A DNA stretch of 64,000 bases, taken from Paenibacillus aceti. Its GTDB lineage: Bacteria; Bacillota; Bacilli; Paenibacillales; Paenibacillaceae. The notes beneath the pieces were generated by a model. It had not been told where the DNA came from, did no database searches, and was given only the letters and a program-made list of their open reading frames with translations. The stretch spans positions 2,592,199-2,656,198 of the forward strand of contig NZ_KZ987724.1 in NCBI RefSeq assembly GCF_003614185.1, given 5' to 3'. Made by a program: the position numbers and the translations under genes. Shown in pieces: positions 26,609-52,430 of the stretch. How positions within the stretch are numbered: position 1 is the first letter of the stretch; every line of letters starts with the position of its first letter.

Positions 26609-26830
26609 TTAGAGATTATATCCGCCGCTGTTCGGCTTGGTCGGGTTCGAGATAATGCCCAGAGTAGCCAGAAGACCCAGAATGACATCCGTGATCATCA
26701 AGATTTCCTGCTTCATCACATCCGTTAAATCGAATAATCCAGTCAAATGTCCGATAAGCTGAATAAGGAGCAGTAATTGAGATATGATACTGACCCATAG
26801 CGCGTAGTTGCGCCATCTTTTCTTATTCAT
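26609..26830 (-). CDS. Phage holin
   Basis: 73 residues, beginning MNKKRWRNYALWVSIISQLL. Two hydrophobic segments (residues about 9-30 and 42-60) and an NPTKPNSGGYNL tail resemble the phi LC3-type holins. It would form membrane holes that let the endolysin encoded upstream reach the wall. AGGAGG eight bases before the ATG fixes this start. Last gene of the tail operon. Confidence 0.82.
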   Translation of the reverse strand: MNKKRWRNYALWVSIISQLLLLIQLIGHLTGLFDLTDVMKQEILMITDVILGLLATLGIISNPTKPNSGGYNL

Positions 26831-26834
26831 CGTA

Positions 26835-27740
26835 TTAGCCTCCTTGCTCAATCTGCTTCAATTTTTCTTCCAGCTCGCTGATCCTCGCTGTGTTGCCTGC
26901 AATTAATTTAAGGAAATTTGCTCTTAATCTATTTATCACGATTGCTGTCTCTTCTCTCGTAATCGGCGCTCCCGGCCTGGTTCCATCGAAGTAGCCGTTC
27001 GCCTTGGCCTCCACCCAATCCTTAGCAGCCCAATTGCTGACTTGATTCACATCGCGTTCGCTCACTTCCGTCTCCTCCTTCTTGGATCCGTACTTCCTCC
27101 TCAGTTCAGCCACGGTGCCGTCGAATTCATTCAGATCTACCTGACCGTTAATCCCACCCACGATCCTCGATCCATTAGGTAATGTGCCTCCGTCTTTGCC
27201 ATCGCTATATTGCCAGAATTCCCAGCGGGTCCAGCCAGAAGCATCCACGGGTGTCTGCGTGCTGTACCTTGCGATCCAGAGCGGGTATTGACTCAATCCG
27301 CTGAAGTTGCCAATGAAAGCCGGATAGGTGTAGAGGATCGGCCGGACTCCGGTTAATCGTTCTATCTCAGCTAGAAAAGCCTTGGCCACCGCATTAGTCC
27401 CCGCCGCGCTTAAGCTGCCGGACTTCGATTCGTAGTCCAGAACAGGGGGCAGGTCGAATTTTACTCCCTCCGATTGCATGGCGCTGAAGAATAACTGCGC
27501 TGCAATTCTCGCCTTAGCCTCTGTTACAATCGAATTGTCCAAATAGTGATATGCACCAACCAATAATCCCGCGGCTTTAGCGCCCCGAGCATTTTCTATG
27601 AATCTTTCATCTATGCGGTTCTGGGTCGCCTTAATAAAAGCGAATGAAATCCCGCTTGCCGCCACCTTCGCCCAATCAATCTTACCCTGCCAGTGAGAGA
27701 CATCGATGCCTTGGGCATTGCCTTGTTTTCTCATTTGCAT
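26835..27740 (-). CDS. GH25 endolysin (N-acetylmuramidase) with C-terminal SLH-like wall-binding motif
   Basis: About 301 residues. The GH25 fold is clear: GIDVSHWQGKIDW near residue 11, AFIKATQ, AYHYLD and the catalytic DYES in PPVLDYESKSG near 98, then a closing WTRWEFWQYSDG. After a linker, NWAAKDWVEAKANGYFDG and PITREETAIVINRLR form an S-layer-homology-like motif, probably binding wall polysaccharide. A short coiled coil (ISELEEKLKQIEQ) ends it. Start at 27740 chosen over the upstream GTG because AAAGGAAG is correctly spaced. It lyses the producer cell to free the particles. Confidence 0.92.
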   Translation of the reverse strand: MQMRKQGNAQGIDVSHWQGKIDWAKVAASGISFAFIKATQNRIDERFIENARGAKAAGLLVGAYHYLDNSIVTEAKARIAAQLFFSAMQSEGVKFDLPPVLDYESKSGSLSAAGTNAVAKAFLAEIERLTGVRPILYTYPAFIGNFSGLSQYPLWIARYSTQTPVDASGWTRWEFWQYSDGKDGGTLPNGSRIVGGINGQVDLNEFDGTVAELRRKYGSKKEETEVSERDVNQVSNWAAKDWVEAKANGYFDGTRPGAPITREETAIVINRLRANFLKLIAGNTARISELEEKLKQIEQGG

Positions 27741-27793
27741 AGCTATCACTTCCTTTACTGTAAAATATGCTAGATACCGCTAGCGGCTTGTAC

Positions 27794-28054
27794 TCACGCC
27801 CCACCCTGCAACTTAATTGCCGTTAAAATAACTCCGATGACAATCGTAATAATCGACGCCGCGATGGTGCGCCAGAGCCACTTCTGGGCATCTTCAATCT
27901 TGTCCAATCGGTGGTGGGCCGACCGCGCCGAGGATAGCGCCTCTACCGCCGTCTCATTCGCCGCAATCGCTCGATCCAGCTTATCGTCCATATTGTCCAC
28001 CTTGGTTTCTACTCTCGTAATCCGCTGTAGCACCTCAGTTTGCACCCCGTCCAT
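27794..28054 (-). CDS. xhlA: XhlA-like membrane-associated lysis protein
   Basis: 86 residues. An N-terminal coiled coil (VLQRITRVETKVDNMDDKLD, ending in KIEDAQKWLWRT) is followed by one membrane span (IAASIITIVIGVILTAI). This is the XhlA layout from PBSX, where the protein works with a holin and endolysin to lyse the cell. ATG at 28054 follows AAAGGGG. Confidence 0.83.
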   Translation of the reverse strand: MDGVQTEVLQRITRVETKVDNMDDKLDRAIAANETAVEALSSARSAHHRLDKIEDAQKWLWRTIAASIITIVIGVILTAIKLQGGA

Positions 28055-28074
28055 CCCCTTTCCCCCTTTCAAAA

Positions 28075-28099
28075 GAAATGCCCCCGGTATCCGAGGGCA
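28075..28099 (-). terminator. Terminator-like hairpin ahead of the lysis genes
   Basis: On the minus strand GCCCTCGG, ATA, CCGGGGGC with one mismatch is followed by ATTTCTTTTG. It lies between the fibre-side small genes and xhlA, so it may separate or attenuate lysis-gene transcription. Confidence 0.55.
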
Positions 28100-28177
28100 A
28101 AAGAATAACCGCTTCCATTATGGTTTGCGGTTTCTTCTAGTTCTACTTCTTCATAATTTTCTGTGAGGTATTCGAGA

Positions 28178-28276
28178 TCACACACCGATCTCCCCGCTGC
28201 TGTTCTTGTAAATAAATTGCCCTAAGCCAGCTAATTGAACGTTCGTAGCATCTTTAATTAGTCTAACTCGTATCAA
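28178..28276 (-). CDS. Short tail-region peptide (32 residues)
   Basis: Frame from TTG at 28276 gives MIRVRLIKDATNVQLAGLGQ then FIYKNSSGEIGV and a TGA at 28178. The TTG overlaps the stop of the upstream 44-codon gene (TTTGA), suggesting coupled translation. I know no function. Tail clusters often carry such small coupled genes after the fibre. Weak ribosome site, so confidence is low. Confidence 0.4.
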   Translation of the reverse strand: MIRVRLIKDATNVQLAGLGQFIYKNSSGEIGV

Positions 28277-28457: not shown

Positions 28458-31400
28458 TCACTGGTAGGCAAGCCAAGTGTATGTTCCCGGCGACATTACG
28501 GGCAGCAGGAAGTTACGTGCGCCCACAAAGGCGGGATCCCAATCTACGATAGCTTTACCTGATACGTTCCCGGTGTTAGTAATAGTTAAGCTCAGTATAT
28601 CTAGCCCGCGACTAGCGAGGAGTCTCATATCGCGCCTGTACACGCTCACATAGCTGTTTCCCGATACGTCAGCGAACATGACTATGATGCTTGGCTGGAA
28701 ATATAGACCCGTAGCCTCTTTGCCGTATGCATAGATAGACGGGCCGCCACCTAATGTGTCATCCTTGTGGAAGAAGTATTTCGAGTCACTTGACGCCACA
28801 GCTAGCGTTCCAGTGGCAAACTCTTTGCCCGTTTTGATCAAGGCAATCTTACTCGCCAGCTGCGGAAATGTGTCGCTGCCTGATGCTGATACCCCTTGGT
28901 CAGTAATGGCGGCGGCGACTAGGCTCTTCCCATTACTGACATTTATAAAAAGCTCGTTGAGAGCGGCGACCGTGTTGCTCTTATCGGTAGTCTTGAGATT
29001 TGCCAGATTACCTACTGCATTGTTAACGGTATCCAGTCGCGCAATGTCTGCCGACGCTGCTGGAGCGGCTACTTGCGCCCTTCCTGTACTGTCTCGCAGA
29101 ACTAACCGGTTGGCAGTCACTGCGGATGTGGCTCCATGGGCCGTTGTAAGGTTAGCATGATCATCTACCGTACCCTTAATTGCAATGTCGTCGGCAGCGT
29201 TTGGCGCCGCTACCTTAGCTCTTCCCGCGCTGTCGCGCATCATAATCCGGCTAGCCGTTGCGGCATTAGTAGCTCCATGCACGGCTGTAGAATCAGTGTG
29301 TGATTTTAAAGTATTGTCAACATATGCCTTTGTCGAGGCATCAGATCCGTATACTGGGTCTGCTACTTGGGTTCTTCCGTTAGCTGACCTGGACATTAAG
29401 GAGTCGGGTATCGGTGCGTATGTAGCCCCGTGTACGCCTGTTGTTGCTGATGCGTGAGAATCTAAGTCTTTACGATTATTTTCGGTGTAGGCTTGAATGT
29501 ACATGTCCGCAAAGTCCTGACGATCATTCTGAGCTTTTAGCTCGTCTGAACTACTAACAACATCGGATAACGTGGCGCTAATACCCGCTTTATAGCTTAC
29601 GTCTAATAGCGTGACGTTGGCTAAATAGTTGTATTTGTCTAATGTTGAGTAGGTCACGTAGTAATCGGCGTTGGGTTCAATGGCTGCCTCATTAATAGAT
29701 TTAGCGTTATCTGCTCCTAACTCCCACCAAGATGCATGTGAAGGTGCTCTAGTCAAGATTTGCCACGAATCATTGTCGAAGTCAGCTCCTTTATACACGG
29801 CTAATATCTTTGACACTCGTCTTGATAGCTTGGTAGTATCTGTGCCATTGATATAGTAGGCTTTTTCATTCGGGCTGTAGTGTAGGCACGCCTTCTCCCT
29901 CTGAATAATCCCAGTCTCGACCGTGAGCTGATTGCCGCCTGGATGAAGCAATATCCCCCCCTCAGTCTTGATCTGCTTGATCTCAGGCACGCCAAGTGCA
30001 TAGTCAATAGTAGCCCATGCTGTCCAACCTGGTGCCTTATTCTTGGACACGTAGTCACCTGTATTTGTTGCAGGTGCTTTGCCATCTAAAATGGAAACCC
30101 AACTGTTGTAAATCGATCCATTATTCCCGTTAGCTTTCCATCCATTCATCAGAGCTTTTAGAGCAATCGCATTTGGTTGTAAAGCTGTCGTCCAACCTGC
30201 AATTGATCTATCAACGGTAACATAAGCTCTAGTAGAAATCTCCATCTGATCAGGTCTTGTCTTCACCACACCTACATTCCCCAACACCTTACCATCGTAC
30301 CTAATTCCACGGGACTTACGAGCCTGCCATGGCGGATTACTATACACATCCGTCAAGAGTAGCGCAAAGGCATCGGTACTGTCTGCACCGTAATTCCACG
30401 GGAGAGACCCATCCAGCGCAAATCCCCGTTCAACACGCTTAACCAACGTAGCGCCTTGCAATCCCACTCGTACCTCGTCACGTACACCCTCAACCTCTGC
30501 AAGTTTCTCAGAGATGATAAGTTGTTGCGGCTTCGCGGGTTCAAACGGCGTGGCTTTATCTCCAAGTTCAAGTTTCCAGTTTTTGTAGGTAAATGTTCCG
30601 GCAGCCTTAGTAGTGAGTGAGACCATGAGTTGGACTACGCCCTCGGGGACAGTAAAAGTGTGCGGGACTGGATGATCACTGTATTTGAGTGCAACTAAGT
30701 TAGCTCCATTTTTGTCTTGCCCGGTGATGCTAGTAAAGCCAGTAGCCTCTATGTTAAATGTATACTTTTGTCCTTTTACTGTGGGTACATACATGTGGGT
30801 ATGCTGATTTGGCCCGGTAGCATTAAGTGTCATTTCGTAAGGAGCTGTCAGCGTAGCCCTAGAGTTTAGAGCGTCTGGCTGACTAGGTAATAAGTTTTTG
30901 CTGGGATGAGATACAACAACACCATCTGCATGCTGCACACCGTCCACATGCGGAAGGTAGTCCCGTATGTTGGCTGCTGTAATGTCTACTCCTATACGGT
31001 TGTATAACTCTTCTGACACTTCATACAGACCAGCCCCATCCCATATCACTGCTCCTGTGCCGCCTACAGGCTCTTGGTTATATAGGTATAGCCCGATGTT
31101 GTCATAATCCTTGGTGGTCGCAAGCTTAACATATGCCACTCCGCTGCCGGTAGTTGTATTACCAGATGCAACAAGTTGCTGAGAGGCTGCCCTATCAAAA
31201 AAACTCAATCTAGCGTTTCCGGTTGCTATATTGGTGTAGTCAGCGATAAAAACGTACCACTTATTAGCTGTTAATTTAATAGGTTCGGCATGTGTGCCTT
31301 TATAAGCAGATGCTACACCTCTTTGCGGGTTAGAGTCAGTTACCAGAGCATTAATTCGCTGAGCTTTTAACCCGTATTTCACGTTTTCTGAGGTGATGGA

Positions 31401-31823
31401 ATATTTACCAGAAGCCAAGCCACTCCACCAGATGGCCACTCCGCTATCACCATTAGGAACCTCAAAATTCCCATAACTCCCCAGCAAATTCACCAACGTA
31501 TTACCATACACCCTAAACTCCGCCCCACTAGCCTGATCCACATCGATCACGGACGTACCAGGGCCTAAGGTAGTAGTGAGGTCCACGCGATCAAGCTTGC
31601 CATCGGTGTAGGCTTTGGCGTTGTCTTCGGCGGTTTTGACCGCCTTGGGGGTGGCGGCACGGTCCTCGGCGGTGCTGTTAGTGGCACTGAATAGTTGAAC
31701 AATTCCTGGCTTGGTTAGGGATGCTGGCTTCGTATTTTGCTGCAGATTGTTAATCTCTTGGCCAAGGCTATTCATGTCTTCGGGCTTTACGGTGTCTGTT
31801 AATTTCCAATTTGTCTTTGCCAT
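28458..31823 (-). CDS. Tail fibre / receptor-binding protein 2 (1121 residues)
   Basis: The N-terminal 120 residues match the larger fibre at 31943-37345 almost exactly and include a tail-fibre repeat (KPGIVQLFSATNSTAEDRAA). One carbohydrate-binding-like module follows (LLGSYGNFEVPNGD to LYEVSEELYNRIGVD), then DYLPHVDGVQH and the shared KNWKLELGDKATPFEPAKP block. Residues about 830-950 hold four short HGAT-containing repeats (for example SATTGVHGATYAPI and STAVHGATNAATA), and the last 170 residues form a unique tip domain. Probably the receptor-binding spike that sets target range. GGAGGT precedes the ATG. Confidence 0.88.
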   Translation of the reverse strand: MAKTNWKLTDTVKPEDMNSLGQEINNLQQNTKPASLTKPGIVQLFSATNSTAEDRAATPKAVKTAEDNAKAYTDGKLDRVDLTTTLGPGTSVIDVDQASGAEFRVYGNTLVNLLGSYGNFEVPNGDSGVAIWWSGLASGKYSITSENVKYGLKAQRINALVTDSNPQRGVASAYKGTHAEPIKLTANKWYVFIADYTNIATGNARLSFFDRAASQQLVASGNTTTGSGVAYVKLATTKDYDNIGLYLYNQEPVGGTGAVIWDGAGLYEVSEELYNRIGVDITAANIRDYLPHVDGVQHADGVVVSHPSKNLLPSQPDALNSRATLTAPYEMTLNATGPNQHTHMYVPTVKGQKYTFNIEATGFTSITGQDKNGANLVALKYSDHPVPHTFTVPEGVVQLMVSLTTKAAGTFTYKNWKLELGDKATPFEPAKPQQLIISEKLAEVEGVRDEVRVGLQGATLVKRVERGFALDGSLPWNYGADSTDAFALLLTDVYSNPPWQARKSRGIRYDGKVLGNVGVVKTRPDQMEISTRAYVTVDRSIAGWTTALQPNAIALKALMNGWKANGNNGSIYNSWVSILDGKAPATNTGDYVSKNKAPGWTAWATIDYALGVPEIKQIKTEGGILLHPGGNQLTVETGIIQREKACLHYSPNEKAYYINGTDTTKLSRRVSKILAVYKGADFDNDSWQILTRAPSHASWWELGADNAKSINEAAIEPNADYYVTYSTLDKYNYLANVTLLDVSYKAGISATLSDVVSSSDELKAQNDRQDFADMYIQAYTENNRKDLDSHASATTGVHGATYAPIPDSLMSRSANGRTQVADPVYGSDASTKAYVDNTLKSHTDSTAVHGATNAATASRIMMRDSAGRAKVAAPNAADDIAIKGTVDDHANLTTAHGATSAVTANRLVLRDSTGRAQVAAPAASADIARLDTVNNAVGNLANLKTTDKSNTVAALNELFINVSNGKSLVAAAITDQGVSASGSDTFPQLASKIALIKTGKEFATGTLAVASSDSKYFFHKDDTLGGGPSIYAYGKEATGLYFQPSIIVMFADVSGNSYVSVYRRDMRLLASRGLDILSLTITNTGNVSGKAIVDWDPAFVGARNFLLPVMSPGTYTWLAYQ

Positions 31824-31942: not shown

Positions 31943-34900
31943 CTATAATCCAAATGCATACCAGTTACGAATATATAAACTTTCATAATAAGATTGGCTA
32001 ATATTTGAACGCAAACTAACAGTGAATCCATTAGGCGACCAAGTAATGGAAGTAGATACTCTTAAGTTAGAAGTTCCATCCCTACCTGTGGTAGTAGATG
32101 AATAAAGTTCGGGGGACCTATTAACTCCTTTAATAAAACACGCATCCCCCGAAACATTCATATACTTACTATCCCAACCGCTATCATAATATTCGAAACC
32201 ACCGCCATAATTAATCATGACTACTATTGGACTAAAATCTAAGTTATTAATTTCTATAGACTTACCCTCTGTATTTCCAGAGGCCTGCTTGATACTGATC
32301 TGCCCAATTTTTTGAGCTAGTATCGAGTTTGAATCAGCCGCACTAGCTGCCACACCTTTCGCAACAATTGCTGATATAATAGCATTACGATCTGCTGTAG
32401 TTAATCGTTCTAATAATCCAGTAATCCCAAAGATACTTACGTCCTTGGGAAGATTACCAGCCACTAGATTAGGATCGCCTTTTACATACCCGTTGCCATT
32501 ATGGTATCCCGATGCAATAATTTGATTAGCTGTATTGGGTGTAATTATTTTGGCACCTTGATTGGGCATCGTACCAGTTAATCCATTTTTACCGGCATTG
32601 CTAAATGTTTTTCCAGCTAATACATCCCCGGCCGTAACATTGCCAGTTGCTTTTATTACTTTAGCCATCTTACTAATTAATTCATCCCAACTGTCTTTCG
32701 TGGACGCTGTCACTCCCAAGGCAATGAGGGCGTCCACTACTTCTCGTTTACGCTCATTGCCAATTGTAAAAGTTTCATTGATCGCAGCAACTAAGCTTGT
32801 CTTATTCGTTGTCTGCAAATCAGTTAGGGTACCTATATCCTTACGGTTATTCTCTGTATATGCTTGAATATATGTGTCCGCAAAGTCTTGACGGTCGTTC
32901 TGAGCTTTTAATTCTACTACATCATCAACAACATTAGTTAAAGTAGCGCTTAATCCAGACTTGTATTGAATAATCATATAGAGCGGATTAGTTGAATACT
33001 GTTCTCTGTCTTTGGGTAAATAAGTGATATAGTAGTTGGCATTAGGATCTACCTTTTCTGCCGGGGCTTGAGCGTACTGAGTACCGTTATTACTACCAGA
33101 ATTCATTACAATCCAAGAATGATCAGGCTTGTCATCTTTATATACAGTTAAGATTCTTCCAGGCCTTCTAGTTGGTTGTGTACCTTGTGTTTGGCTATTA
33201 ATAAAGTACATAGCTTTATTTGCGCTGATTTGAATTTTAACTTTCTCTCGCTGCACCACACCAGATTCTATTTCCATCTGGTTGTTTTCTGGGCTTAAAG
33301 ATATGCTCCCTTCAGTCTTAATTGGCTCAATTTCTGGTACAGACAACACATAATTTATAGTAGCCCAGCTATCCCATCCCGGTGCCTTATTTGCTGATAC
33401 ATAGGCTTCTGTATTGCTTGCGGGTGCTTTTCCATTTAGGATGGATACCCAACTATTGTACACAGATCCATTGTTTCCGTTGGCCTTCCAGCCATTGGCT
33501 AAGGCTTTGATCGCATTTGCCCCTGGTTTAAGAGAACTATTCCATCCAGAATCCATATTATTTACTGACATTGCAAGGCCGTTTGAGCCCGTGCTGATCT
33601 GATCTCCTGCAGAAAACTTAACTAAACTCATAGATGTAAGCCGTTTTCCGTCATAACGAACACCAGATAGCTCTGTAGTGTTTGGTTTAGCTCCGGGTAG
33701 TTTGGTAAGAGGTATATAAAGTTGTCGATAGGTTTTTCCAGTGTCGTCCCCGTTGAGCTGAGTTGGATATGTTCCATCGATGTGTACACCAGTAACTACA
33801 CGACGGATAAGGGTAGATTCTGTTTGGCCTACTCGTACTTCATCTTTTATTCCTTCTACCTCAGCAAGTATCTTCGGGATAATAAGTTGTTGTGGTCCAG
33901 CTATTTCAAAGTCAGTAGCCCTGTCTCCTAGTTCTAATTGCCAGTTTTTAAAGGTAAATGTCCCCGCTACAGAACTTCCAAAGGCCAGACTAAGTCTCGT
34001 ACAATTAGGCGGAGTCGTGAAAGTTGTGACATATCTTCCAGACCCCGAGTTCAGTTCACCCAGGTATTGGTTAGTTCCATCTGCAAATAAGTTACGGTAG
34101 CCTAAATATGCTTGTCCAGCAGAAGCTTCCATACTCGCTTTCAATGTGTAGAGGGTGTTAGGTTTGACATTAACGGTGACGAGGCTGGCTTGATATTTCT
34201 CTGTCGCGTTAAGCAATAATTCGTAGGGAGTCGTTACCTTTGCATTAGCATGTATTGTATCTGGTTGACCAGGCAACAAGTTTTTACTTCGTTTGGTGAC
34301 TACCACTCCATCTACATATTGCATATCGTCTACATGCGGAACATATTCTCTAATGTTAGTTTCATTAATATCCACACCTATTCGCTTATAAAGCTCTTCA
34401 GATAGCTCGTAAATACCTACTCCATCCCATTGAACCCATCCTACAATCCCTTTAGATACACTGTTATAAATAAGAACTCGAAGATCATTTGTGTCGGTGG
34501 ATGGAGAGTATTTTATAAAATGAACCTTGCTTGAATTAGACTGTGATGTCTCCGCTACGTAGTTACTAGCAGTCGTTCCGTCTCGATATACAGCCATTTT
34601 TGCTACGCCTGTACCATCTGTAACTGCATCAGCAATAATTACATATTTTTTTCCAGCTACTACGGATAATCCTGATTGCATAGCATAACGAGTTGATCCA
34701 GTGTCATCTGCACTAGACGTAATTCGTTGCGATTTCACACCGTACAAAGCATTAGTACTTACGAGAGTAAATACTCCAGCCTGTGACTTAGTCCAACTAT
34801 CAGCCAAGCCATCATTATTACTATCCACCTCAAAGCTACCATTTTTCACCTGGTTAAACTCTGTTCTCCCATGAATAACAAAGTTAGTCATACTAGGCTG

Positions 34901-43787: not shown

Positions 43788-43804
43788 TGGAATTCTACCT
43801 CCCT

Positions 43805-43841
43805 TCCAAAATAGTAAAAGCACCCTCCTAAGAGAGTGCTT
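43805..43841 (-). terminator. Hairpin between chaperone and tape measure genes
   Basis: AAGCACTCTC (43841-43832 on the minus strand), loop, GAGGGTGCTT, with one mismatch, followed by TTACTATTTT. It could lower tape-measure expression relative to sheath and tube, or merely process mRNA. Confidence 0.6.
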
Positions 43842-44927: not shown

Positions 44928-46256
44928 TTATTGAACTGAAATGCTCATGTAAATTTTCTCTGCACTATCGACTGGCTGAACCGCAAGCTGAATCCAGACT
45001 GCATCTACATCCTGACCCGGCAGCACCTCGATATCACTCTGCGAATCGAAATTCTGAATCGCTCCGATTCCCTGCAAGTTATCCAGATAACTGATAACCT
45101 CACCCTTCAACAGATTGCGTCCGTCCGCATTGTTATCCGTCTTGCCAACATAGTTCTGGCTAAAGATATATTGAATATCCTTCGCCATCGAATCGAGAAC
45201 ACGCAGCACCCGGTTCTTGCTGAACTTCTTATCCTTATCGGCTGTAAAGGAAGTCAAGGTGTTAATGTCCTGTTCGATGACTACATGCCCATTAACCACA
45301 CTGAGTACCATCTCACCCTTGTTCAAGGCTTGTACGATCTCGGAATTTGTAAATTTCGGCGCTACATCAACCGCATTCGGGATCGTCGTATAGGTCAGCG
45401 ACTCATTCACATTGGCCGCCGCTTCCATCGCCGCGATTTCCCATAGCAGGTAGGTAGGCTCTACCGTCAAGCCATCAGCAGTAACGATGCCGTTCTTGAG
45501 ACTAATGACGCCTTCATAATCGGCTCCAGGGTAGTTATGAACGATCGTCTGGAACTTCTTGCCTTCCTGCTCGCGCAGACGCTTCGTATAAGCGACCGCC
45601 AGCTGCTTCACAGCACTATCGTCCACTGGAATACCGAGAACATTGAAATCTTCTGCCTCAAACGCAGCCAGTGCATCGGAATATTCACCCGCACCTCCGC
45701 TGCCGTTCGCTCCGCCTGCCAGAGAAGTTCCTGCGGTCTCCGTCAATGCGCCGCTTCCCGCGAACTCGACGAACTCATTCGCCAACAGCTTCTCGGCCGT
45801 TTCAACGGTCTGCACATCCACCTTCTCACCATCGAGCAGCGTCTTCACCTCGAAGAAGCCTTCATAGTCCAGACTGGACTGAATGACGATCTGCAGATCA
45901 TTCCCGCGCGTACCGCCATACTTCGCTGTTGCTGTCAGGCTCCCCAGCTTAGCCGTCGCCTTAACGGCACTGTCTGCCCCAAGACGATAAATCAGAATTT
46001 TGCTGGCATGGGCCATCGCCGCCGTAATATGGCGAATCCTTGCATCGGTTGGTCGGAAGCCAAGTGATGGCAAGCACTGCTCCAGGAAGATCTCGCTATG
46101 CAAGACGGTAATCCCGCTTTTCCCCCATGAAAGGGGTGCCGGAAAAGCAACGATCCCGCGTTCTCCAAGAGCGCCGATCGATTTTGCCTCCGATTTGAAA
46201 TTAATATAAACGCCAGGTCTTACCTTGTTCTGAACTGTAAATGTTCCACCCGCCAT
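44928..46256 (-). CDS. xkdK: Contractile tail sheath protein (XkdK-like)
   Basis: 442 residues. N-terminus GTFTVQNKVRPGVYINFKSE, then LGERGIVAFPAPLSWGKSGI, a KLGSLTATAKYGGTRGNDLQ insertion domain and a C-terminal VAPKFTNSEIVQALNKGEMV with NTLTSFTADKDKKFSKNRVL. This is the phage sheath family, proving a contractile (R-type) tail. An 82-residue gene and a tail terminator-like gene precede it. Confidence 0.95.
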   Translation of the reverse strand: MAGGTFTVQNKVRPGVYINFKSEAKSIGALGERGIVAFPAPLSWGKSGITVLHSEIFLEQCLPSLGFRPTDARIRHITAAMAHASKILIYRLGADSAVKATAKLGSLTATAKYGGTRGNDLQIVIQSSLDYEGFFEVKTLLDGEKVDVQTVETAEKLLANEFVEFAGSGALTETAGTSLAGGANGSGGAGEYSDALAAFEAEDFNVLGIPVDDSAVKQLAVAYTKRLREQEGKKFQTIVHNYPGADYEGVISLKNGIVTADGLTVEPTYLLWEIAAMEAAANVNESLTYTTIPNAVDVAPKFTNSEIVQALNKGEMVLSVVNGHVVIEQDINTLTSFTADKDKKFSKNRVLRVLDSMAKDIQYIFSQNYVGKTDNNADGRNLLKGEVISYLDNLQGIGAIQNFDSQSDIEVLPGQDVDAVWIQLAVQPVDSAEKIYMSISVQ

Positions 46257-46257: not shown

Positions 46258-46506
46258 TTACTTCACTCCTCTATGTTTAAATTGATTGATTCTCGCTTCT
46301 GCTTCCAGCTTCGTGTAACGCTCTCCATCCTCCAGCACGACCGCCAGAATATCCTTCAGCACGCCGGGATAAAATTGCGAAGCCAGAAACTGTGCCTTCG
46401 AGTACCTGACCTCCGAACGCACTTGATCCTCCGTCTGTGCCTCAGCTGACATATCCGCTGCTGCATCCAGATCCTTCACCTGCTTAGTTTTCTTGTTTGC
46501 TTCCAT
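46258..46506 (-). CDS. Small conserved tail-cluster protein (82 residues)
   Basis: MEANKKTKQVKDLDAAADMS onward, with YSKAQFLASQFYPGVLKDIL and a C-terminal ARINQFKHRGVK. Charged and helical. The segment YSKAQFLxSxxY recurs in proteins encoded before sheath genes in Bacillus-type clusters; role unknown. Overlaps the upstream gene by 23 bases and ends one base before the sheath start. Confidence 0.72.
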   Translation of the reverse strand: MEANKKTKQVKDLDAAADMSAEAQTEDQVRSEVRYSKAQFLASQFYPGVLKDILAVVLEDGERYTKLEAEARINQFKHRGVK

Positions 46507-46939
46507 CTTTCAGAATCCCCTCCTCCTTGAGCGTTCTCATTTTGGATTCATCCACCGGCGGGAGCCAGACCAGGAAATGAAAGCTAAAGTCAAAATGCAA
46601 TATCCCATTCCGGACCTCATGCCTCATCTGCGTCCCTGTATATCTGGCACCGTCGATATCGAGCTCTCGAAATAATTCGTAGAGCTGCTCCGCCACGTCA
46701 AGCACTGACATATCGAGACTTTCAGGCTCAGCCCTGGTCACGTACTGCACTTGAAATGAACAAACCCGGTGATAGCGCAGATTTAGCTCCTGCTCCTGAG
46801 ATGTTTTTAACAATTCGGCATAAAAATAAGGCCCTTCGGCCTTCGCGATCCTCCCGCTGTACACCGGGATCTTCGGGAAACGTTCAGCTAGCGACCGGAT
46901 GACTCCGGTCTGAATCGTATCGAGGCTTACCTCAATCAT
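46484..46939 (-). CDS. Tail terminator-like protein (DUF6838-type)
   Basis: 151 residues: MIEVSLDTIQTGVIRSLAER, PYFYAELLKTSQEQELNLRY and LHFDFSFHFLVWLPPVDESK. The layout resembles tail completion or terminator proteins encoded upstream of the sheath in PBSX-like clusters. ATG overlaps the previous TGA (ATGA). In a capsid-less particle this protein would cap the tail end. Confidence 0.7.
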   Translation of the reverse strand: MIEVSLDTIQTGVIRSLAERFPKIPVYSGRIAKAEGPYFYAELLKTSQEQELNLRYHRVCSFQVQYVTRAEPESLDMSVLDVAEQLYELFRELDIDGARYTGTQMRHEVRNGILHFDFSFHFLVWLPPVDESKMRTLKEEGILKDGSKQEN

Positions 46940-47112
46940 GCACTCGCTCCCTTCATCCCTTTATCCTCCACCACACACCGCGGCAGGCTGCAAAATTGCT
47001 TCGTGCCTTCGAGCCGCCCCCATATACAGCTGATGCACAGCTCGGGCTGCTTCCACTCCGTCTCGGTGAGAGGCGCTGCGGGCGGATTTTTGTTATTTCT
47101 GCTGATTGGCAT
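46936..47112 (-). CDS. 58-residue four-cysteine protein, first gene of the tail operon
   Basis: MPISRNNKNPPAAPLTETEW then KQPELCISCIWGRLEGTKQF and CSLPRCVVEDKGMKGASA. The CxxC and CxxxxC pairs suggest a zinc knuckle. GGGAGG lies seven bases before the ATG, and the TGA overlaps the next ATG. An overlapping longer frame on the same strand lacks these signs and is rejected. Unknown function; possibly regulatory or structural. Confidence 0.72.
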   Translation of the reverse strand: MPISRNNKNPPAAPLTETEWKQPELCISCIWGRLEGTKQFCSLPRCVVEDKGMKGASA

Positions 47113-47131
47113 TCGCTACCCTCCCAAATAA

Positions 47132-47161
47132 GAAAAGCCGCTGCAATTAGCTCAGCGACTT
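47132..47161 (-). promoter_or_regulatory. Leader hairpin upstream of the tail operon
   Basis: Minus strand: AAGTCGCTGAGC, loop, GCAGCGGCTTTTCTTATTT. The GTCGCTG/CAGCGGC stem followed by U-rich sequence looks like an intrinsic terminator inside the 5' leader. The same hairpin occurs at 50022-50053. Confidence 0.6.
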
Positions 47162-47219
47162 CTCTCGTTCTATCGGCGAATCGGGCTTCATGGCCCGTCC
47201 GCCTGATTCTCACAATACA

Positions 47220-47282
47220 AATTTAACACGCCTAAAAGGAAATGAACGGTCATGCAGAGGACAATAAGCGGACATATGTTCG
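47220..47282 (-). promoter_or_regulatory. Tail operon promoter module X: LexA-like box, 11-bp iterons, weak -10
   Basis: Minus strand order: CGAACATATGTCCG (47282-47269, one mismatch to the Bacillus LexA consensus), then direct repeats ATGTCCGCTTA, TTGTCCTCTGC, ATGACCGTTCA at an 11-bp period (to 47244), then TAAATT (about 47225-47220) as a possible -10 with no good -35. The same module with identical internal spacing lies at 50081-50142. Confidence 0.65.
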
Positions 47283-47403
47283 TATTTTGCATTCTACTGA
47301 GATTTAGTTAATTTGGTACAGGACAAAATGACTAGAAACCCTTTTGCTGTTCATCACGTCTATAATATAGACGGCTATTCATTCTATGACTTTGGAGGTA
47401 CAT

Positions 47404-48216
47404 ATGCTGAAAAAAATGATCTTATCCATACTTGCTTCGGCCCTACTGGCGATCTCCGCCATTTCGACCTCCAGCTTTGCGAGTTTTGCCGCTGTGAAAC
47501 TGGACAATGGGAAGCTGCAAAATAATCGGGTGCTCATTCCTCTACGCGATGTATCCCAGCATTTAGGCGCTCGGGTAGAATGGGAAAGTCAGGACCAGCT
47601 GATTACCATTATCAAAGATGACACCACCATACAATTAAGAGTGAATTCCAATCAGGTTCAAGTTAATGAAGCCGAGGTCATGCTCGATGTTCCGGCGCAA
47701 CTGGATCATGGGGGAACGACTTATGTGCCGCTGCGTTTTGTCAGTCAGACCCTCGGGGCAGACGTGAATTGGGATCAGAAGCTCAAGCAAGCAGCGATTG
47801 CCTTAGAAGATAAAGAGATTGTGATAAGTATGAAAGTGGAACCCCCCTCTGCCGCGCAAAAAGCCACGATGATCCGGTTACAGCAGCTGGCCGATAAATT
47901 GAACGAGGCTAATGATATTTCGACCATGAAGCAGGTTCGCGAGTATTTCCAGCCCTACTTCACGGATAAATTCATTAATTTGATCATTAAGGATAAGGGG
48001 CTGCAGAATAAGTACGAATTTAAGGATCTTACCTCCCCAGCCTTCTACACAAGCATGACAACAGGGCGATTCTCACAAGCGATTGATATAGGAAGGAACG
48101 AACATGGGAATTTGGTGACGATGACTCGACAGGCTCAGCTAGTCAATATCGATGGGCTCTGGAAAATCGATAGTGTGGTCTTCAAAAAAGATGAGATTCC
48201 TGTTTCCGGGGTTTAG
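47404..48216 (+). CDS. Secreted copper-amine-oxidase-N-like stalk protein
   Basis: 270 residues with a signal peptide (MLKKMILSILASALLAISAI, ending near SFASFA). Two repeats of the stalk domain follow: VLIPLRDVSQHLGARVEW and YVPLRFVSQTLGADVNW. The C-terminal part (MIRLQQLADKLNEANDISTM then YFQPYFTDKFINLIIKD) resembles a small alpha-beta ligand domain. Such proteins are abundant in Paenibacillus at the cell surface; function unclear. GGAGG eight bases before the ATG at 47404. It points away from the tail operon. Confidence 0.82.
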   Translation: MLKKMILSILASALLAISAISTSSFASFAAVKLDNGKLQNNRVLIPLRDVSQHLGARVEWESQDQLITIIKDDTTIQLRVNSNQVQVNEAEVMLDVPAQLDHGGTTYVPLRFVSQTLGADVNWDQKLKQAAIALEDKEIVISMKVEPPSAAQKATMIRLQQLADKLNEANDISTMKQVREYFQPYFTDKFINLIIKDKGLQNKYEFKDLTSPAFYTSMTTGRFSQAIDIGRNEHGNLVTMTRQAQLVNIDGLWKIDSVVFKKDEIPVSGV

Positions 48217-48262: not shown

Positions 48263-48270
48263 GAGTGGGA

Positions 48271-49977
48271 TTAATGCAAAGTGACCTCAGGATTCAACGT
48301 AATTTCAAAAGCGCGCCCCCATAAAAAGTCTGGATTTTCATAGGGAAGGACAACGCTGCTATAACCCGCCAGACTCCCTGAAGCTCCGCGGATTTGCTTG
48401 ATATTCCTGGCGCAATCTGGACTGCCGATCAAGAAGGCTGGCTTGCCTCCCAGTGTCGCTACATGAGTCTGCATCCGATCGCGAAGTACACCGCGCATAT
48501 ACTCATAATCCTCCGGCGGGTTGAACAACAGCATGTTCTGATCCGTAAACCCCTGCGGAAGATTGCTGTATTTGCCGTGGCTGCGGGAGTAAGTCCGAAT
48601 TTCGCCAATGGCCACCGCTTTATAGAAGTAATCCTTCAAGAAGCGCTTGAAGAGCAGTGATCCGTGGGCATTGACAGCTGCTCCAAGCGCCTTCTTCCTT
48701 GTCTCCGAGACCAGGAATGAGTAACGCGCCTCGCCCATCCCTAGCGAAATTCCGATTTTATTCCCGGCTGTATTCCAGCCACTATATCCCAAGAGTCGGC
48801 CTGTGTATGGGCTTTCCAGCAAAGCTTCCGTTACGGCGGCATTCGCAGCCCCTTGCCCCACAAAATCAACGACTACCGTCGCAATGCCATGGGCTCCATT
48901 CGTATTAATCTGGTTCATCGCACTGGTCACTTCAGCAGAGCTCGTGATGGCAATAATTTCGATATCCGGGCAATGAGCTACATATTGACCGCCGATGATA
49001 TCAATATGTCGCAGGATATTATCATGTACACTCATATATTCATAAGGGTTAATAATCGTAGAACCATGAGGGCCATAATATCGAACCGCAAATTTAGTTC
49101 TGGTCCTTCTCCGATGCAATTGATGGGCCATACGAGCCACCAGGGAATGACCAAGACCGTCTGCATCAGGTAAAATAACTGCTCGATCCGGATTCTGTCC
49201 CTCACAGCCTCCAAGTGATTGGTTAATGTAGTTCTCCACAAAGCGGATTTCATTAATTTGCACCCCTTCTGTCTTGGCATCATCGACGCCAATAGCCAGA
49301 AAATCGATATACCCCTGGCGCACCAGCCGATCCAGCACGTAATAATTCGTTTTGAATTTATGCTGCCGGGTGTTGTAGTAGGCTGTCTTATCAAACTCAG
49401 TGGTATCCCCGTACTGTGTGTCATCATCTGATGTGTTATAACCATTCAGAATATCGTCGAAGGTCGTATACGCTTTGCGTGGCTGGCCCATGAAGCTGCG
49501 GGATTCCACATAGGTATCATAAGTAAGCCCCTCGGTATAGGTCGTTGTAGCCAGGCGCATAATCGTATCCAGTACATAGATCGGCTTGCGGGGATAGTCC
49601 TGTTTGATTTTACGAATGACATCGAGTAGCTGAATAGTAGTAGCGTCATAGTTCGGATAGGCTCCTCCTCCATCCGCCCGTAATCGCCTGCTGCCAATCA
49701 GTCCACCATACGCCAGCATATCCGTCGAAATAATGAAGCCGTCGACCGCCGCCGCATGGTCCAGAATGAACTGACGAATCTTCGCTGTATTCCCGAAGAC
49801 CGGGGAAGAGGTGCTGAGAAGCTGATCCCCTGAAGCATCCGCTACAGAATCGAGGCGATTCCGAATGTCGGCCTCATGGGGTGTAATCAAATGCAGACCT
49901 GCCGATTGACCTTGCTTGACCACATCATCCAGATTCACAGGACGGTCATCAAGCGGAACGTACAATACTTTTTTCAT
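48271..49977 (-). CDS. DUF4127 family protein
   Basis: 568 residues. The N-terminal MKKVLYVPLDDRPVNLDDVV, then STDMLAYGGLIGSRR, IGVDDAKTEGVQINEIRFVE, GADDAGLG-like PDADGLGHSLVARM and SGWNTAGNKIGISLG are the conserved blocks of DUF4127, a cytoplasmic family with no proven activity. The start at 49977 follows GGAG by ten bases. It is transcribed from the right-hand copy of the duplicated promoter module, next to the ArpU-like activator. Not a known phage gene. Confidence 0.85.
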   Translation of the reverse strand: MKKVLYVPLDDRPVNLDDVVKQGQSAGLHLITPHEADIRNRLDSVADASGDQLLSTSSPVFGNTAKIRQFILDHAAAVDGFIISTDMLAYGGLIGSRRLRADGGGAYPNYDATTIQLLDVIRKIKQDYPRKPIYVLDTIMRLATTTYTEGLTYDTYVESRSFMGQPRKAYTTFDDILNGYNTSDDDTQYGDTTEFDKTAYYNTRQHKFKTNYYVLDRLVRQGYIDFLAIGVDDAKTEGVQINEIRFVENYINQSLGGCEGQNPDRAVILPDADGLGHSLVARMAHQLHRRRTRTKFAVRYYGPHGSTIINPYEYMSVHDNILRHIDIIGGQYVAHCPDIEIIAITSSAEVTSAMNQINTNGAHGIATVVVDFVGQGAANAAVTEALLESPYTGRLLGYSGWNTAGNKIGISLGMGEARYSFLVSETRKKALGAAVNAHGSLLFKRFLKDYFYKAVAIGEIRTYSRSHGKYSNLPQGFTDQNMLLFNPPEDYEYMRGVLRDRMQTHVATLGGKPAFLIGSPDCARNIKQIRGASGSLAGYSSVVLPYENPDFLWGRAFEITLNPEVTLH

Positions 49978-50021
49978 CACATAAATCTCCTTTTTCAATG
50001 TTCTCCTTATAAATAGAGAAG

Positions 50022-50053
50022 AGCCGCTGAAATATGCTTCAGCGACTCTCCTG
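50022..50053 (-). promoter_or_regulatory. Leader hairpin upstream of the DUF4127 gene
   Basis: Minus strand GAGTCGCTGAAG, short loop, TTTCAGCGGCTCTTCTC: an 11-bp stem nearly identical to the leader hairpin at 47132-47161. Possible attenuator shared by both operons. Confidence 0.62.
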
Positions 50054-50080
50054 TTTATAAGGGTGGTATGGCTCAATACC

Positions 50081-50142
50081 AATTTAACATGCTATAAAGC
50101 TAGTCAGCGGACATTCAGCGGACAAAATGCGGACATATGTTC
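50081..50142 (-). promoter_or_regulatory. Promoter module Y: 11-bp iterons, duplicate of module X
   Basis: Minus strand: GAACATATGTCCGC (50142-50129), then ATGTCCGCATT, TTGTCCGCTGA, ATGTCCGCTGA as three direct repeats at an 11-bp period, then TAAATT at 50086-50081. The 27-base spacing from the start of the AATTTAACA block to the iteron end equals that in module X. Absence of a -35 fits an activator-dependent promoter, likely for the ArpU-like protein encoded just upstream (inference). Confidence 0.65.
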
Positions 50143-50182
50143 CTGTTTTATTATTTATGAAATCATGAAAAAAGTCGGCATT

Positions 50183-50701
50183 TCAGCCGACGACATGCTT
50201 CGTATTTCTCCGCTCAGTATATTCTTTTACCCTCCCGGGCACCTCATCTTCATATACTTCCAGCTTCATCGCCACCGCCAGAATGCGAAGCGCGCTCGCC
50301 TTGATCCGTCGATAGGTTCTATCGCTGATCCCCATCTCACCACAGTTGATGAAATCATATTCTGCCTCGCGGCTCAGATAGCTCCGTTCAATAACCTCAC
50401 GCTGCACCACCGATAAACTGTCCATCGCCTTGTCCAGCAGCTCAGATTTGCGAATCAGTTCCGCCTCCCGATCCACATTCGAGATGGCCAGATGCTCCGA
50501 CGGCTTGTTGATCTGATTGGTATTCCCGTGATACCTTGGCTCGTAACTGGCCGTTATCCCTGCTTCACGGCGGATAAAGCCGACCTGCCGGTAATGTCGC
50601 ACCTCTTCCAGGCGCTGTTCGACAGCCGCTCTGGTCGCAGCCTGATGAATGGGCAGATTATCAAATACAGTCAGATAAATATTCGTGTTTCGCTTCGCCA
50701 C
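50183..50701 (-). CDS. ArpU-like late transcription activator of the tail cluster
   Basis: 172 residues from GTG at 50701 (GGGAGGG six bases upstream). The C-terminal region LLDKAMDSLSVVQREVIERS then GEMGISDRTYRRIKASALRI is a sigma-region-4-like helix-turn-helix, as in ArpU and other phage late regulators. It replaces the sigma-like Xpf of PBSX in position. Faces away from the XRE repressor gene across four operators, so it is the likely target of repression and in turn the activator of the iteron promoters. Confidence 0.82.
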   Translation of the reverse strand: MAKRNTNIYLTVFDNLPIHQAATRAAVEQRLEEVRHYRQVGFIRREAGITASYEPRYHGNTNQINKPSEHLAISNVDREAELIRKSELLDKAMDSLSVVQREVIERSYLSREAEYDFINCGEMGISDRTYRRIKASALRILAVAMKLEVYEDEVPGRVKEYTERRNTKHVVG

Positions 50702-50758
50702 TTCAATCCCTCCCAAGATTCACAGCTATATATAATAATGAGATCACTTGAAAAGCTA

Positions 50759-50946
50759 ATGCCATTTTGGTAACTTATAAAAGGCTACTATTCGAACTCT
50801 TTCTCAACTATCACTTTATACTTGCAACAGCTCAGCCCCTTCTTCAGTCATTTTTACCGATTCGGTAACTATATCTCGATTATATATTACCATTTCGGTA
50901 ATGTCAATCTATGTAATTCTGCAAATATACCTTACCATTTTGGCAA
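50759..50946. promoter_or_regulatory. Four repressor operators and the XRE promoter
   Basis: Consensus TTACC-N5-GGTAA: ATGCCATTTTGGTAA (50759-50773), TTACCGATTCGGTAA (50854-50868), TTACCATTTCGGTAA (50887-50901), TTACCATTTTGGCAA (50932-50946). The last contains the -35 TTACCA (50932-50937) of a promoter whose TATAAT is at 50955-50960, 17 bases on. The array fills the divergent region between activator and repressor, a lysogeny-type switch. Confidence 0.8.
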
Positions 50947-50987
50947 CCTTATGCTATAATAGTCTAAACGGTGAAAGAGGAGTCATT

Positions 50988-51362
50988 ATGCAAACCCTTG
51001 GTGATCGTATTAAATATCTCAGAGAATTAAAGCAACTTACCCAAAAGGACCTGGCCGCCAAAGCCGGGCTCACGGTCGTCCAATTGTCGCGTTATGAGAC
51101 GAATGACCGCAAGCCTGATCCGGAGTCGCTGCGCCAAATTGTCGATGCGCTGGACACCAGTGGGGACTATCTGCTAGGCCGGACCCAGGACCCTGCGCCT
51201 ATGAAGGAAGCAGCCACCAATATGTCTTTTTATGGTGGTCCGGAAAGTTATACCGATGATGAAATTGCCATGATGGAAGCAGCTCTGAAGGCGTACCGTG
51301 AACAGAAGAAGAAGCTGCTGCATACAGACCAAACAGATAAAGAGGATGCCGAATCAAAATAA
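50988..51362 (+). CDS. XRE family repressor of the tail cluster
   Basis: 124 residues. Helix-turn-helix LGDRIKYLRELKQLTQKDLA then AGLTVVQLSRYETNDRKPDP at residues 4-44, followed by an acidic helical tail (AMMEAALKAYREQKKKLL). ATG at 50988 with AAAGAGGAG upstream. It overlaps its own operator array by promoter position and precedes an ImmA-like protease gene, the pairing known from ICEBs1 and related elements where the protease destroys the repressor. Confidence 0.9.
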   Translation: MQTLGDRIKYLRELKQLTQKDLAAKAGLTVVQLSRYETNDRKPDPESLRQIVDALDTSGDYLLGRTQDPAPMKEAATNMSFYGGPESYTDDEIAMMEAALKAYREQKKKLLHTDQTDKEDAESK

Positions 51363-51416
51363 TATAGAGGATTCTTGGTCTCTGACGAAGAATCTTTAAT
51401 CATGGAAGCTTAATCC

Positions 51417-51446
51417 AGCCCTTACCGTAGAAGGGCTATTATTTTC
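51417..51446 (+). terminator. Weak terminator between repressor and protease genes
   Basis: AGCCCTT (51417-51423) pairs with AAGGGCT (51431-51437), followed by ATTATTTTC. A short stem, so read-through into the protease gene is likely. Confidence 0.5.
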
Positions 51447-51455
51447 AATACATAG

Positions 51456-51469
51456 CGAACATACATTCT
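51456..51469. promoter_or_regulatory. LexA-like box upstream of the protease gene
   Basis: CGAACATACATTCT fits the Bacillus LexA pattern CGAAC-N4-GTTYG with two or three mismatches and lies 17-30 bases before the protease ATG. Would link protease expression to DNA damage. Weak match. Confidence 0.35.
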
Positions 51470-51485
51470 TATTCGAGGTGGATTT

Positions 51486-52091
51486 ATGTTATTCTCCTAT
51501 TACCAGGAAACTCCTCTGGAGCAATGGATCAGCACGGAATATATGAGTCATGGGATTATGGCTCCAGAGCAGCTAGATATCGATCATATCGCCCAGGCCT
51601 TTGGCGTGGAGCTGATCTACGAGGCTTGTCCCTCCTTCTCCGATAACGAGGATAAAGTGATTTTTCTGAATAAGCAGACGCAGGAGCTCAATGCCCGACT
51701 TATCTTCTTCCATGAGCTATGCCATGTGCTGCGCCATGCCGGGGATCAGCGGGTCATGCCTCATCTTTTCAAGCATGCACAGGAGACGGAAGCCGAGCAA
51801 TTTGTCCTCTATGCTGCCGTCCCTTTCTATATGCTATCGAGACTTAGCATTCCAGATCAGCACTGTGAGGCGATTCCCTTTATAGCAGAACAATTCCAGG
51901 TAACGCCGGAGCTTGCCGAGCGAAGACTGGATCAGGTACAGCGCCGAGTCCTATACGGCACTCTGATCGCGGCGACCCGCGAAGCAGATCGGAAGCAGGC
52001 AGCCCCTTCCTGGTCCCCGGAGACCAAGCGGATGCTGAGCCAATTGGAACGTCAAATCAGCGGCGGTCATGGAGGACAAGGAGGGATTTAA
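51486..52091 (+). CDS. ImmA/IrrE family metallopeptidase
   Basis: 201 residues. The zinc motif HELCHVLRH (HExxH type) is near residue 78, preceded by LNARLIFF and followed by the ETEAEQFVLYAAVP third-ligand glutamate region. ImmA proteins cleave their partner XRE repressor when triggered by DNA damage or signals, releasing late genes. Encoded 120 bases after the repressor with a GAGGTGG ribosome site. Confidence 0.9.
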   Translation: MLFSYYQETPLEQWISTEYMSHGIMAPEQLDIDHIAQAFGVELIYEACPSFSDNEDKVIFLNKQTQELNARLIFFHELCHVLRHAGDQRVMPHLFKHAQETEAEQFVLYAAVPFYMLSRLSIPDQHCEAIPFIAEQFQVTPELAERRLDQVQRRVLYGTLIAATREADRKQAAPSWSPETKRMLSQLERQISGGHGGQGGI

Positions 52092-52094
52092 GCA

Positions 52095-52430
52095 ATGCGG
52101 TTAGCTGTATATTGTGATTTCATATCCGAAGGCATGCATCCCTTCCAGCTCATTATCCGGCCTGAACCTGGGGAATTGGACTGGAGTAAGACGCTCTATC
52201 TACCGTTATCCGGCCCGTTCGAACCATTTGAAGCCGAGCAATTCGGCGACCTGATCGGGGCCTCGATTTTGCTCGAGGATCTCGTGGTCGGCAAAGACTC
52301 CCCGCAGCAGATCGGCATAGCGCTCCCTCAAGTCGCCGAACGTTACCCGGGGGCCGACATTTCTCTGCTTATCCTGCAAATTGCCGATGTGGAGGAAATA
52401 TTGGGGTACCGCTGGGGGCAGCAGCTATAA
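52095..52430 (+). CDS. Unknown 111-residue protein downstream of the protease
   Basis: MRLAVYCDFISEGMHPFQLI onward, with LPLSGPFEPFEAEQFGDLIG and ADVEEILGYRWGQQL. No family recognised. It begins three bases after the protease stop, so the two are co-translated, hinting at an accessory role in the switch. Soluble, acidic, about half beta by eye. Confidence 0.65.
   Translation: MRLAVYCDFISEGMHPFQLIIRPEPGELDWSKTLYLPLSGPFEPFEAEQFGDLIGASILLEDLVVGKDSPQQIGIALPQVAERYPGADISLLILQIADVEEILGYRWGQQL

Follow-up and report, generated by a model that had tools for sequence, protein, structure and literature searches.

Several described systems resemble the contractile tail locus that occupies 26.6–52.4 kb of a 64,000-nucleotide stretch of Paenibacillus aceti DNA, hereafter the window. 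The diffocin clusters of Clostridioides difficile are, to our knowledge, without heads. According to the available part of PMC4453579, diffocins are SOS induced. Environmental Pseudomonas strains carry R-tailocins at a fixed site between host genes, where modules vary by strain and clusters encode one to four R- or F-type particles. In P. protegens CHA0, tailocins #1 and #2 are two contractile tails in one cluster that share lysis genes and a PrtR-like regulator. Clusters with several tails at a single site are already known in Pseudomonas from these accounts (PMC7815802 and PMC8319346, available portions). A PBSX-like bacteriocin is described in Brevibacillus laterosporus (PMC9406221, available portion). 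No study of a Paenibacillus tailocin was among the titles listed in the literature searched, which did not cover subscription journals, and a report on P. larvae prophages (PMC9341999, available portion) uses neither the term tailocin nor the name PBSX.

Profile scans with PHROGs, Pfam, and NCBIfam reveal a contractile tail, lysis genes, and regulators in the block, which is very probably an R-type tailocin. The block encodes a contractile sheath, tube, tape measure, and baseplate, together with its own lysis cassette and regulators, and no head genes were detected in it. Related strains retain the locus at a fixed site, and its fibres diverge among them. The sequence-only reading had proposed a headless contractile tail locus of the R type, and both the gene content and a headless arrangement kept in four relatives, with sheaths 72–94% identical to that of the window, support it. 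Its inventory of sheath, tube, tape measure, baseplate, fibres, XhlA, endolysin, holin, activator, repressor, and protease holds, except that one chaperone is found where several were listed. The inventory also gains two genes without known tail function (47386–48216 and 48271–49977), located between ArpU and the tail genes.

Like the Pseudomonas R-tailocins, the loci described here combine a fixed site, multi-tail clusters, and shared lysis genes. They differ in their Gram-positive host and in their regulators, which are a repressor, an M78 metallopeptidase, and ArpU; no mention of solo modules away from the regulators was found in the available portions of PMC7815802 and PMC8319346. Diffocins also have a contractile tail with an XkdK/XkdM-type sheath and tube, but both proteins are distant from those of the window (CD1363, E 1.7e-21; CD1364, E 3.3e-12). 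The nearest solved sheaths by sequence are DSY3957 and Lin1278, with the diffocin sheath third. The likeness to diffocins drawn earlier is apt for how the locus would work, but not for closeness of sequence. PBSX and PBP180 of Bacillus and the B. laterosporus bacteriocin share the tail gene order and a sigma-like positive regulator. Unlike the window, PBP180 carries terminase, portal, and capsid genes between the regulator and the sheath, as had been stated for PBSX-type elements; on this point the window is not of the PBSX type. The tail of the Jimmer-like Brevibacillus phage Powder is among the nearest sequenced ones (sheath 43%, tube 52%, D 51%, J 48%), but Powder is a complete phage in which head genes immediately precede the sheath.

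The absence of head genes was assessed by comparing 33 head and packaging proteins of four phages (PBP180, phiOH2, phiC2, and Powder) with the whole window. No head gene is detected in the block; the best match has an E value of 0.020 and lies outside it, and the head–tail joining genes of the query phages have no match in the window. These results agree with the earlier claim that terminase, portal, capsid, and head–tail joining genes are missing from 26.6–52.4 kb. The claimed lack of an integrase is in line with the block being fully tiled by listed genes, which leaves no room for a gene of that size, no integrase profile having been run. No second sheath was found in the 5.6-Mb genome (8 contigs), and no TIGR01547 terminase either.

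A sheath search of 41 genomes of the genus, including the window's own, gives a match in 34. The matches fall into two contractile kinds, designated A (window-like, 59–94% identity) and B (~28–37% identical to A, with sheaths mostly of 485–534 aa). B sheaths are present in 27 of the 41 genomes, with fragments in two.

A 76-nt repeat (78%) precedes both the tail operon and the DUF4127 gene of the window. Each copy is composed of three TGTCC-type repeats in 11-bp steps and, after a spacing of ~20 bp, a −10-like box (TTAAAT or TATAAT), with no evident −35 box. The copy at 47205–47295 (minus strand; TGTCC, TGTCC, TGACC; −10 like TTAAAT) is proposed to serve as the tail operon's ArpU-dependent late promoter, and the second copy, with three TGTCC repeats, lies at 50066–50156 (minus strand). 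A first motif guess, clusters of TGTCCGC, caught one of the two copies and was dropped; the 76-nt repeat gave the correct unit. The promoter model was built from the two window copies and then iterated to 41 rows, in which two loci appear twice (L009/L044 and L004/L059). The two-copy model already finds copies before the tail modules of relatives, with strong scores in the clade of the window and at many B loci. In the window's own genome, the only one scanned entirely, the exact pattern has two matches, both in the window, and the reversed control has none.

The position of this site differs between headless loci and prophages. Among 32 loci tabulated, the site lies 0.82–1.02 kb before the sheath in all 18 headless A-type loci, whereas none of the eight head-bearing A-type prophages has it within 3.5 kb of the sheath. 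The motif separates the two groups over these 26 loci (18 and 8); a Thermobacillus locus fits neither. In the G035 prophage, the site is located 9.9 kb upstream of the sheath, between the ArpU gene that the prophage itself carries and the head genes. A weak site lies 13.8 kb upstream in the second G015 prophage. Four reference phages contain no site near the sheath, and phiOH2 has a weak one close before its terminase. The G010_C locus offered too little sequence to score, and the G018 solo locus 6.5 kb of upstream sequence only. B loci were sampled as a set of 20 followed by 4 more, and the promoter precedes 19 of the 20 B modules. It is also present in all loci fetched after model building (6/6 solo A and 4/4 B). 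In the tandem loci L041, L042, and L045, the B module has its own promoter copy.

Beyond the genus, 11 of 12 ArpU loci contain a promoter match, and nine of the 12 score at least 20 bits, compared with a best score of 10.2 in 240 shuffled loci. In ten of the 12, which carry head genes, the match falls between ArpU and the first head gene. Given this position, the unit appears to be an old late promoter of phages, and headlessness appears to reflect loss of the stretch between promoter and tail. The comparison suggests a rule for the origin of headless tails, in which a late promoter that stands before head genes in phages now stands directly before the tail.

A strong ArpU match (E up to 1e-35) is found in 32 of the 41 genomes, comprising all 31 with an A (≥59%) or B sheath and G031. 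ArpU is present in 31 of 31 genomes with such sheaths versus one of ten without (Fisher p 2.9e-8), where the 31 include the two with B fragments and the A-like sheath of G003 (51%, in a head-bearing prophage) is not counted as A. In L071, L073, and L074, where ArpU is 42–47% identical, the repeats read TGGCC at eight of nine positions, compared with 2 of 93 positions across the remaining rows that were read. ArpU probably pairs with the TGTCC repeats. The 172-aa protein (50183–50701, minus strand) matches TIGR01637 above the cut-off, and its sigma-70 match (E 1.4e-4) is below that profile's own cut-off. No paper on ArpU as a phage late-gene regulator was found in the literature searched; binding sites and a terminator step are now proposed for it.

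Three palindromes of the form TTACC-N5-GGTAA/GGCAA (50854–50946, unstranded) lie between the repressor and ArpU genes. Two to four such palindromes are present in 20 of 24 relatives with the repressor in the stretch, one is present in L125, and none in L071, L073, and L074. This distribution is as expected of repressor operators, which the palindromes are proposed to be.

Each late promoter of the window is followed by a terminator-like hairpin, at 47131–47163 in the tail operon and at 50016–50051 in the DUF4127 unit (both minus strand). Of 61 sites, 48 have such a hairpin in the 130 nt that follow the promoter; the controls gave 16 in 1220 shuffled stretches and 20 in 600 random ones. It is present in 45 of 51 rows of the genus, one of them a duplicate (L070) and several preceding DUF4127, lysis, or other genes instead of a tail, in three of nine rows of other genera, and not in the single prophage row (L135). 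The count omits an overlapping second match in L079, and L075, which has a similar hairpin by eye. Across 38 hairpins, eight of ten pairs are changed on both sides (46 cells versus 13.4 in shuffles). The 38 were preselected for having a hairpin, which biases the pair percentage, and the evidence consists of the compensatory changes and the 48 of 61 sites. In phage lambda, the late promoter pR′ is bound by Q and immediately followed by the terminator tR′. The layout here is similar, with the promoter of a dedicated regulator and then a terminator, but it contains three direct repeats, ArpU resembles sigma region 4 by weak evidence, and the arrangement is known from layout only. Antitermination by ArpU is conceivable, if on balance unlikely.

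A solo A module with the promoter, away from the ArpU locus, occurs in 13 genomes (G002, G004, G007, G009, G010, G012, G013, G015, G018, G024, G026, G036, and G037), all of which carry a strong ArpU. No ArpU, head, or window-type lysis match is present in the 28–36 kb read at the solo loci. In the four genomes whose neighbours were read, these encode a glycosidase, a LacI-type regulator, SelO, SseB, and a P-type ATPase; some were scanned and gave no holin or lysin match, and the other nine genomes could hide unlike lysis genes. A 767-aa neighbour on the opposite strand in G012 has a sub-cut-off peptidoglycan-binding match. In G010, the 26 kb read contain neither a B module nor a promoter after ArpU, which leaves the solo tail, ~2.3 Mb away, as the sole known candidate target. 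The balance tips slightly toward solo tails being controlled in trans by the ArpU locus. If they are, a tailocin census restricted to complete clusters overlooks some of the arsenal. As a separate observation, the G010 locus (L108, 9820–20000, after ArpU) encodes by eye PAAR/DUF4280-like and Rhs-like products where a tail module is expected; three of these genes were scanned and have no PHROG match.

The promoter is also found before other kinds of genes. G008 has a second copy before a holin and an endolysin, and G016 (L095 and L110) has a copy before non-contractile tail genes (a virion structural protein, tape measure, Dit, and minor tail protein) next to a B-type module. From the latter copy, the regulon may take in F-type tails too. 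A two-tier regulon, in which one ArpU locus switches several unrelated tails, any promoter-linked tail joins, and ArpU is Q-like, is put forward tentatively, its chances being somewhat below even. The ArpU locus would stand at the fixed site beside the lysis genes, and the tails would be contractile A and B and, in one genome, a non-contractile one, some of them solo cassettes at other chromosomal places with neither regulators nor detected lysis genes. If it is true, the particles are swappable, and Q-like passage of the terminator gives the ArpU family a mechanism. No description of the promoter rule, the terminator step, or the solo tails in this group was found in the literature searched, and what is proposed on the promoter type, the hairpin, and the solo tails draws on sequence comparison.

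The site of the window locus, between amidohydrolase/dgaE and oxalate decarboxylase genes, recurs in the genus, and most loci read there hold B. The oxalate decarboxylase gene directly follows the gene for a 111-aa protein in ten loci (L068, L069, L076, L079, L120, L121, L122, L124, L126, and L127), and amidohydrolase/dgaE genes lie on the lysis side in other loci. The repressor, M78, 111-aa, and ArpU genes also accompany B modules. Among the 20 B loci, arpU lies within the 20 kb read in 15, just upstream in two, on another contig in one, and ~36 kb off in one; there is none at the second B locus of G011. One of the 20 has a weak head match (21% identity), and none of the later four has any. 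In G003, G022, and G033, the repressor, M78, and 111-aa genes remain between the same neighbours with no tail match. In the near relative G031, the tail is gone while the promoter, DUF4127, and lysis genes remain. An apparent break-up of the regulators in G031 was set aside: the housekeeping genes around them match in several pieces as well, so the assembly is the probable cause. Decay of arpU in G011, G032, and G031 is not claimed, since the stops counted may be C-terminal. The site suggests fixed control and release functions, with entire tail modules coming and going behind a switch of one type.

In G011, in G032 (matching Paenibacillus sp. GM2), and in G017 (matching Fontibacillus phaseoli), an A module comes first, then a B module that appears complete, and then lysis genes; A and B share regulators and lysis genes. 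A tree of four tail proteins groups the window with G011 and G032 (100%), and these with G017 and P. vini (100%). Whether the clade of the window and the larger solo-A group have a single origin is not settled by the tree, where their split has 52% support. Since the window groups with the tandem loci, loss of B in its lineage is the simplest reading by parsimony, and such a loss is likely. DNA similarity to G011 and G032 ends within fibre 1 and restarts just before XhlA, and both window fibres contain short islands that match the fibre region of the G011 B module; one island is seen in G032 as well. These islands support the loss.

We propose the following mechanism and history. The repressor, on the TTACC-N5-GGTAA palindromes, would keep ArpU off, and damage signalling via the M78 protease would remove it; ImmA removes ImmR in a parallel step. 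ArpU, the C-terminal part of which is sigma region 4-like, would bind the three repeats, which would stand in for a −35 box, and would then start transcription of the tail and lysis genes or carry the polymerase through the hairpin. Cell lysis would free headless particles, whose fibres would choose the target. As to history, an A-type phage tail may have lost its head block, bringing the late promoter immediately ahead of the tail; in this clade, A would have stood in tandem with the genus-typical B, and the window lineage would have lost B while keeping the shared regulators and lysis genes. An inherited R-type tailocin with this mechanism and history is, with good confidence, the best explanation overall. 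The tailocin is most likely working, and it is predicted to be a weapon whose targets are probably related bacteria.

The locus could instead be a defective prophage in decay that lost its heads by chance and has no selected function. The tail-less G031 at the same site and the three genomes that retain only the repressor, M78, and 111-aa genes are what decay would leave. However, dN/dS is 0.02–0.18 in 13 genes compared with G032, the tape measure being highest, which indicates strong purifying selection and makes decay less likely. Eight tail genes (sheath, tube, chaperone, P, Q, R, S, and T) are 88–96% identical to those of G011 and G032, while the fibres are only ~24–26% identical to the A fibres of these genomes; U is 79–81%, the tape measure 75–77%, and the terminator 67–68% identical. 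With 18 headless A loci and the wide occurrence of B sheaths also speaking against it, decay is improbable. Slightly less probable still is an extracellular contractile injection system of the Afp/PVC/MAC type that delivers a protein toxin. Such a system could account for the DUF4127 gene, with its late promoter, and the copper-amine-oxidase-like gene within the block, but we know of no effectors in these two families, neither an AAA+ ATPase nor an effector cargo family was matched among the genes scanned, and a phage-type lysis cassette and long fibres are present.

The least probable reading, and a very unlikely one, is a helper-dependent system in which the tails join heads of other elements and move DNA. 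A search of the genome for a head module had been set beforehand as a check on the sequence-only reading, and linked terminase, portal, and capsid genes do occur in two elements of the same contig; both were set aside as the source of a missing head module. Taken literally, this is the linkage that the sequence-only reading had named as evidence against it. The portals map near 2227 kb and 2261 kb of the contig, which puts them ~390 and ~356 kb away from the cluster. The first element (2206–2256 kb, L088–L090) is a prophage with a portal, a terminase, and its own tail proteins; inspection by eye named a 1648-aa tape-measure-like and a 433-aa integrase-like product there. The second (2257–2272 kb, L090 and L091) is a small element with an SPP1-type portal, terminase, capsid, and weak scaffold match, in which tail genes were not noticed. 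Its portal is distant from known ones, at 23–25% identity to its best matches, which are phages of other Gram-positive hosts (best 12 of 163). The promoter is in neither stretch, its copies being confined to the window, and no head–tail joining gene of the query phages matches there. A further alternative concerns the regulator alone, namely that a protein other than ArpU binds the TGTCC array and the linkage to ArpU is incidental. Binding by ArpU is a prediction, and the array is also present at solo tails far from arpU; against this stand the near-perfect co-occurrence of the two, the position of the array after ArpU in other genera, and repeats that change along with a divergent ArpU, which together make another binder rather unlikely.

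Returning to the inherited R-type tailocin under ArpU control, several observations weigh against parts of this reading. The un-iterated promoter model is weak at solo A sites (E 0.026 to 5.8), and the iterated one was trained on many of the loci later counted. No site was found at the second B module in G011 (L080), nor at the Thermobacillus locus (L008), a headless-looking A-type locus without head matches. Three of the 12 other-genera loci score at the shuffle level (10.9 and 10.2) or below it (5.4, L168). L168 (G167, another genus) holds a headless-looking A-type tail (sheath 46%) beside a repressor and ArpU, with no detectable promoter. In the other genera, roughly 3–6 kb of other genes separate the promoter from the terminase or first head gene. 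No separate promoter was found before the lysis genes of the window. The ArpU structure model is weak (pLDDT 54); it resembles sigma region 4 domains, with no Foldseek match below E 0.001. The head search used queries from four phages only, so divergent heads near B modules could escape it, and an element with portal, terminase, and capsid genes does lie 356 kb from the cluster.

The tail, baseplate, fibre, and lysis genes are all on the minus strand, with the regulators upstream. The first gene of the tail operon (46936–47112) encodes a 58-aa protein with a CxxC…CxxxxC pattern, read from the sequence; it has a ribosome-binding site by eye and a homologous stretch in relatives, and no PHROG match. 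It is preferred over an 86-aa open reading frame at 46953–47213, which is probably wrong as a gene. A possible 67-aa product has no PHROG family. The tail terminator (46484–46939; PF20765), which matches gene 13 of Powder, is followed by a small conserved protein (46258–46506), the sheath (XkdK, 44928–46256), the tube (XkdM, 44447–44914; PDB 2guj XkdM, E 1.7e-30), an XkdN-like tail chaperone (44016–44435), and a 717-aa tape measure (41670–43823). The baseplate genes, whose letter-by-letter Xkd names follow the PBSX gene order, encode an XkdP-type LysM protein (40985–41677), an XkdQ-type hub protein (40014–40967; 51% to Powder late control D), an XkdR-type DUF2577 protein (39673–40014), an XkdS-type wedge (39278–39697), an XkdT/gpJ-type wedge (38206–39291), and an XkdU-type protein (37629–38213).

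A small conserved protein (phrog_6293, 37345–37632) precedes two fibres. Fibre 1 (31943–37345, 1800 aa) is 54% identical to fibre 2 in its N-terminal part, and residues 795–1613 give a second fibre 2 match (40%); the two successive matches look like a repeated unit of ~800 residues, and no separate match appears when fibre 1 is compared with itself. Fibre 2 (28458–31823, 1121 aa; Phage_fiber_2) resembles the module-B fibre protein of G011 at residues 860–1049. The lysis cassette consists of XhlA (27794–28072; PF10779; 95% in G011 and G032), a glycosyl hydrolase family 25 endolysin (26835–27749; 86% identity beside the tandem loci of G011 and G032), and a holin (26609–26851; Phage_holin_1 in PHROGs and Pfam). 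Rfam gives no match at the gathering threshold over 26–53 kb.

Between ArpU and the tail lie a copper amine oxidase N-domain protein (47386–48216, plus strand; PF07833), either cargo or an insertion, and a DUF4127 protein (48271–49977, minus strand; PF13552), for which a structure model has a pLDDT of 35 and is of no use. The pair is possibly cargo. It occupies this position in the window, G011, and G032, lies between ArpU and the lysis genes in G031, and was not seen at that position in the other loci read. On the plus strand, the regulators comprise a Cro/CI-type repressor (50988–51362; HTH_3), in which no protease domain match was found, an M78 (ImmA/IrrE-type) metallopeptidase (51486–52091; PF06114), and the 111-aa protein (52095–52430), which adjoins M78 in the genus loci read and has no Pfam family. 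Two starts were improved, that of ArpU to 50701 (called as 50183–50716) and that of the repressor to 50988, the latter taken from a relative. The site is marked by the amidohydrolase gene (24681–25973, minus strand) on one side and the oxalate decarboxylase gene (56316–57548, plus strand) on the other.

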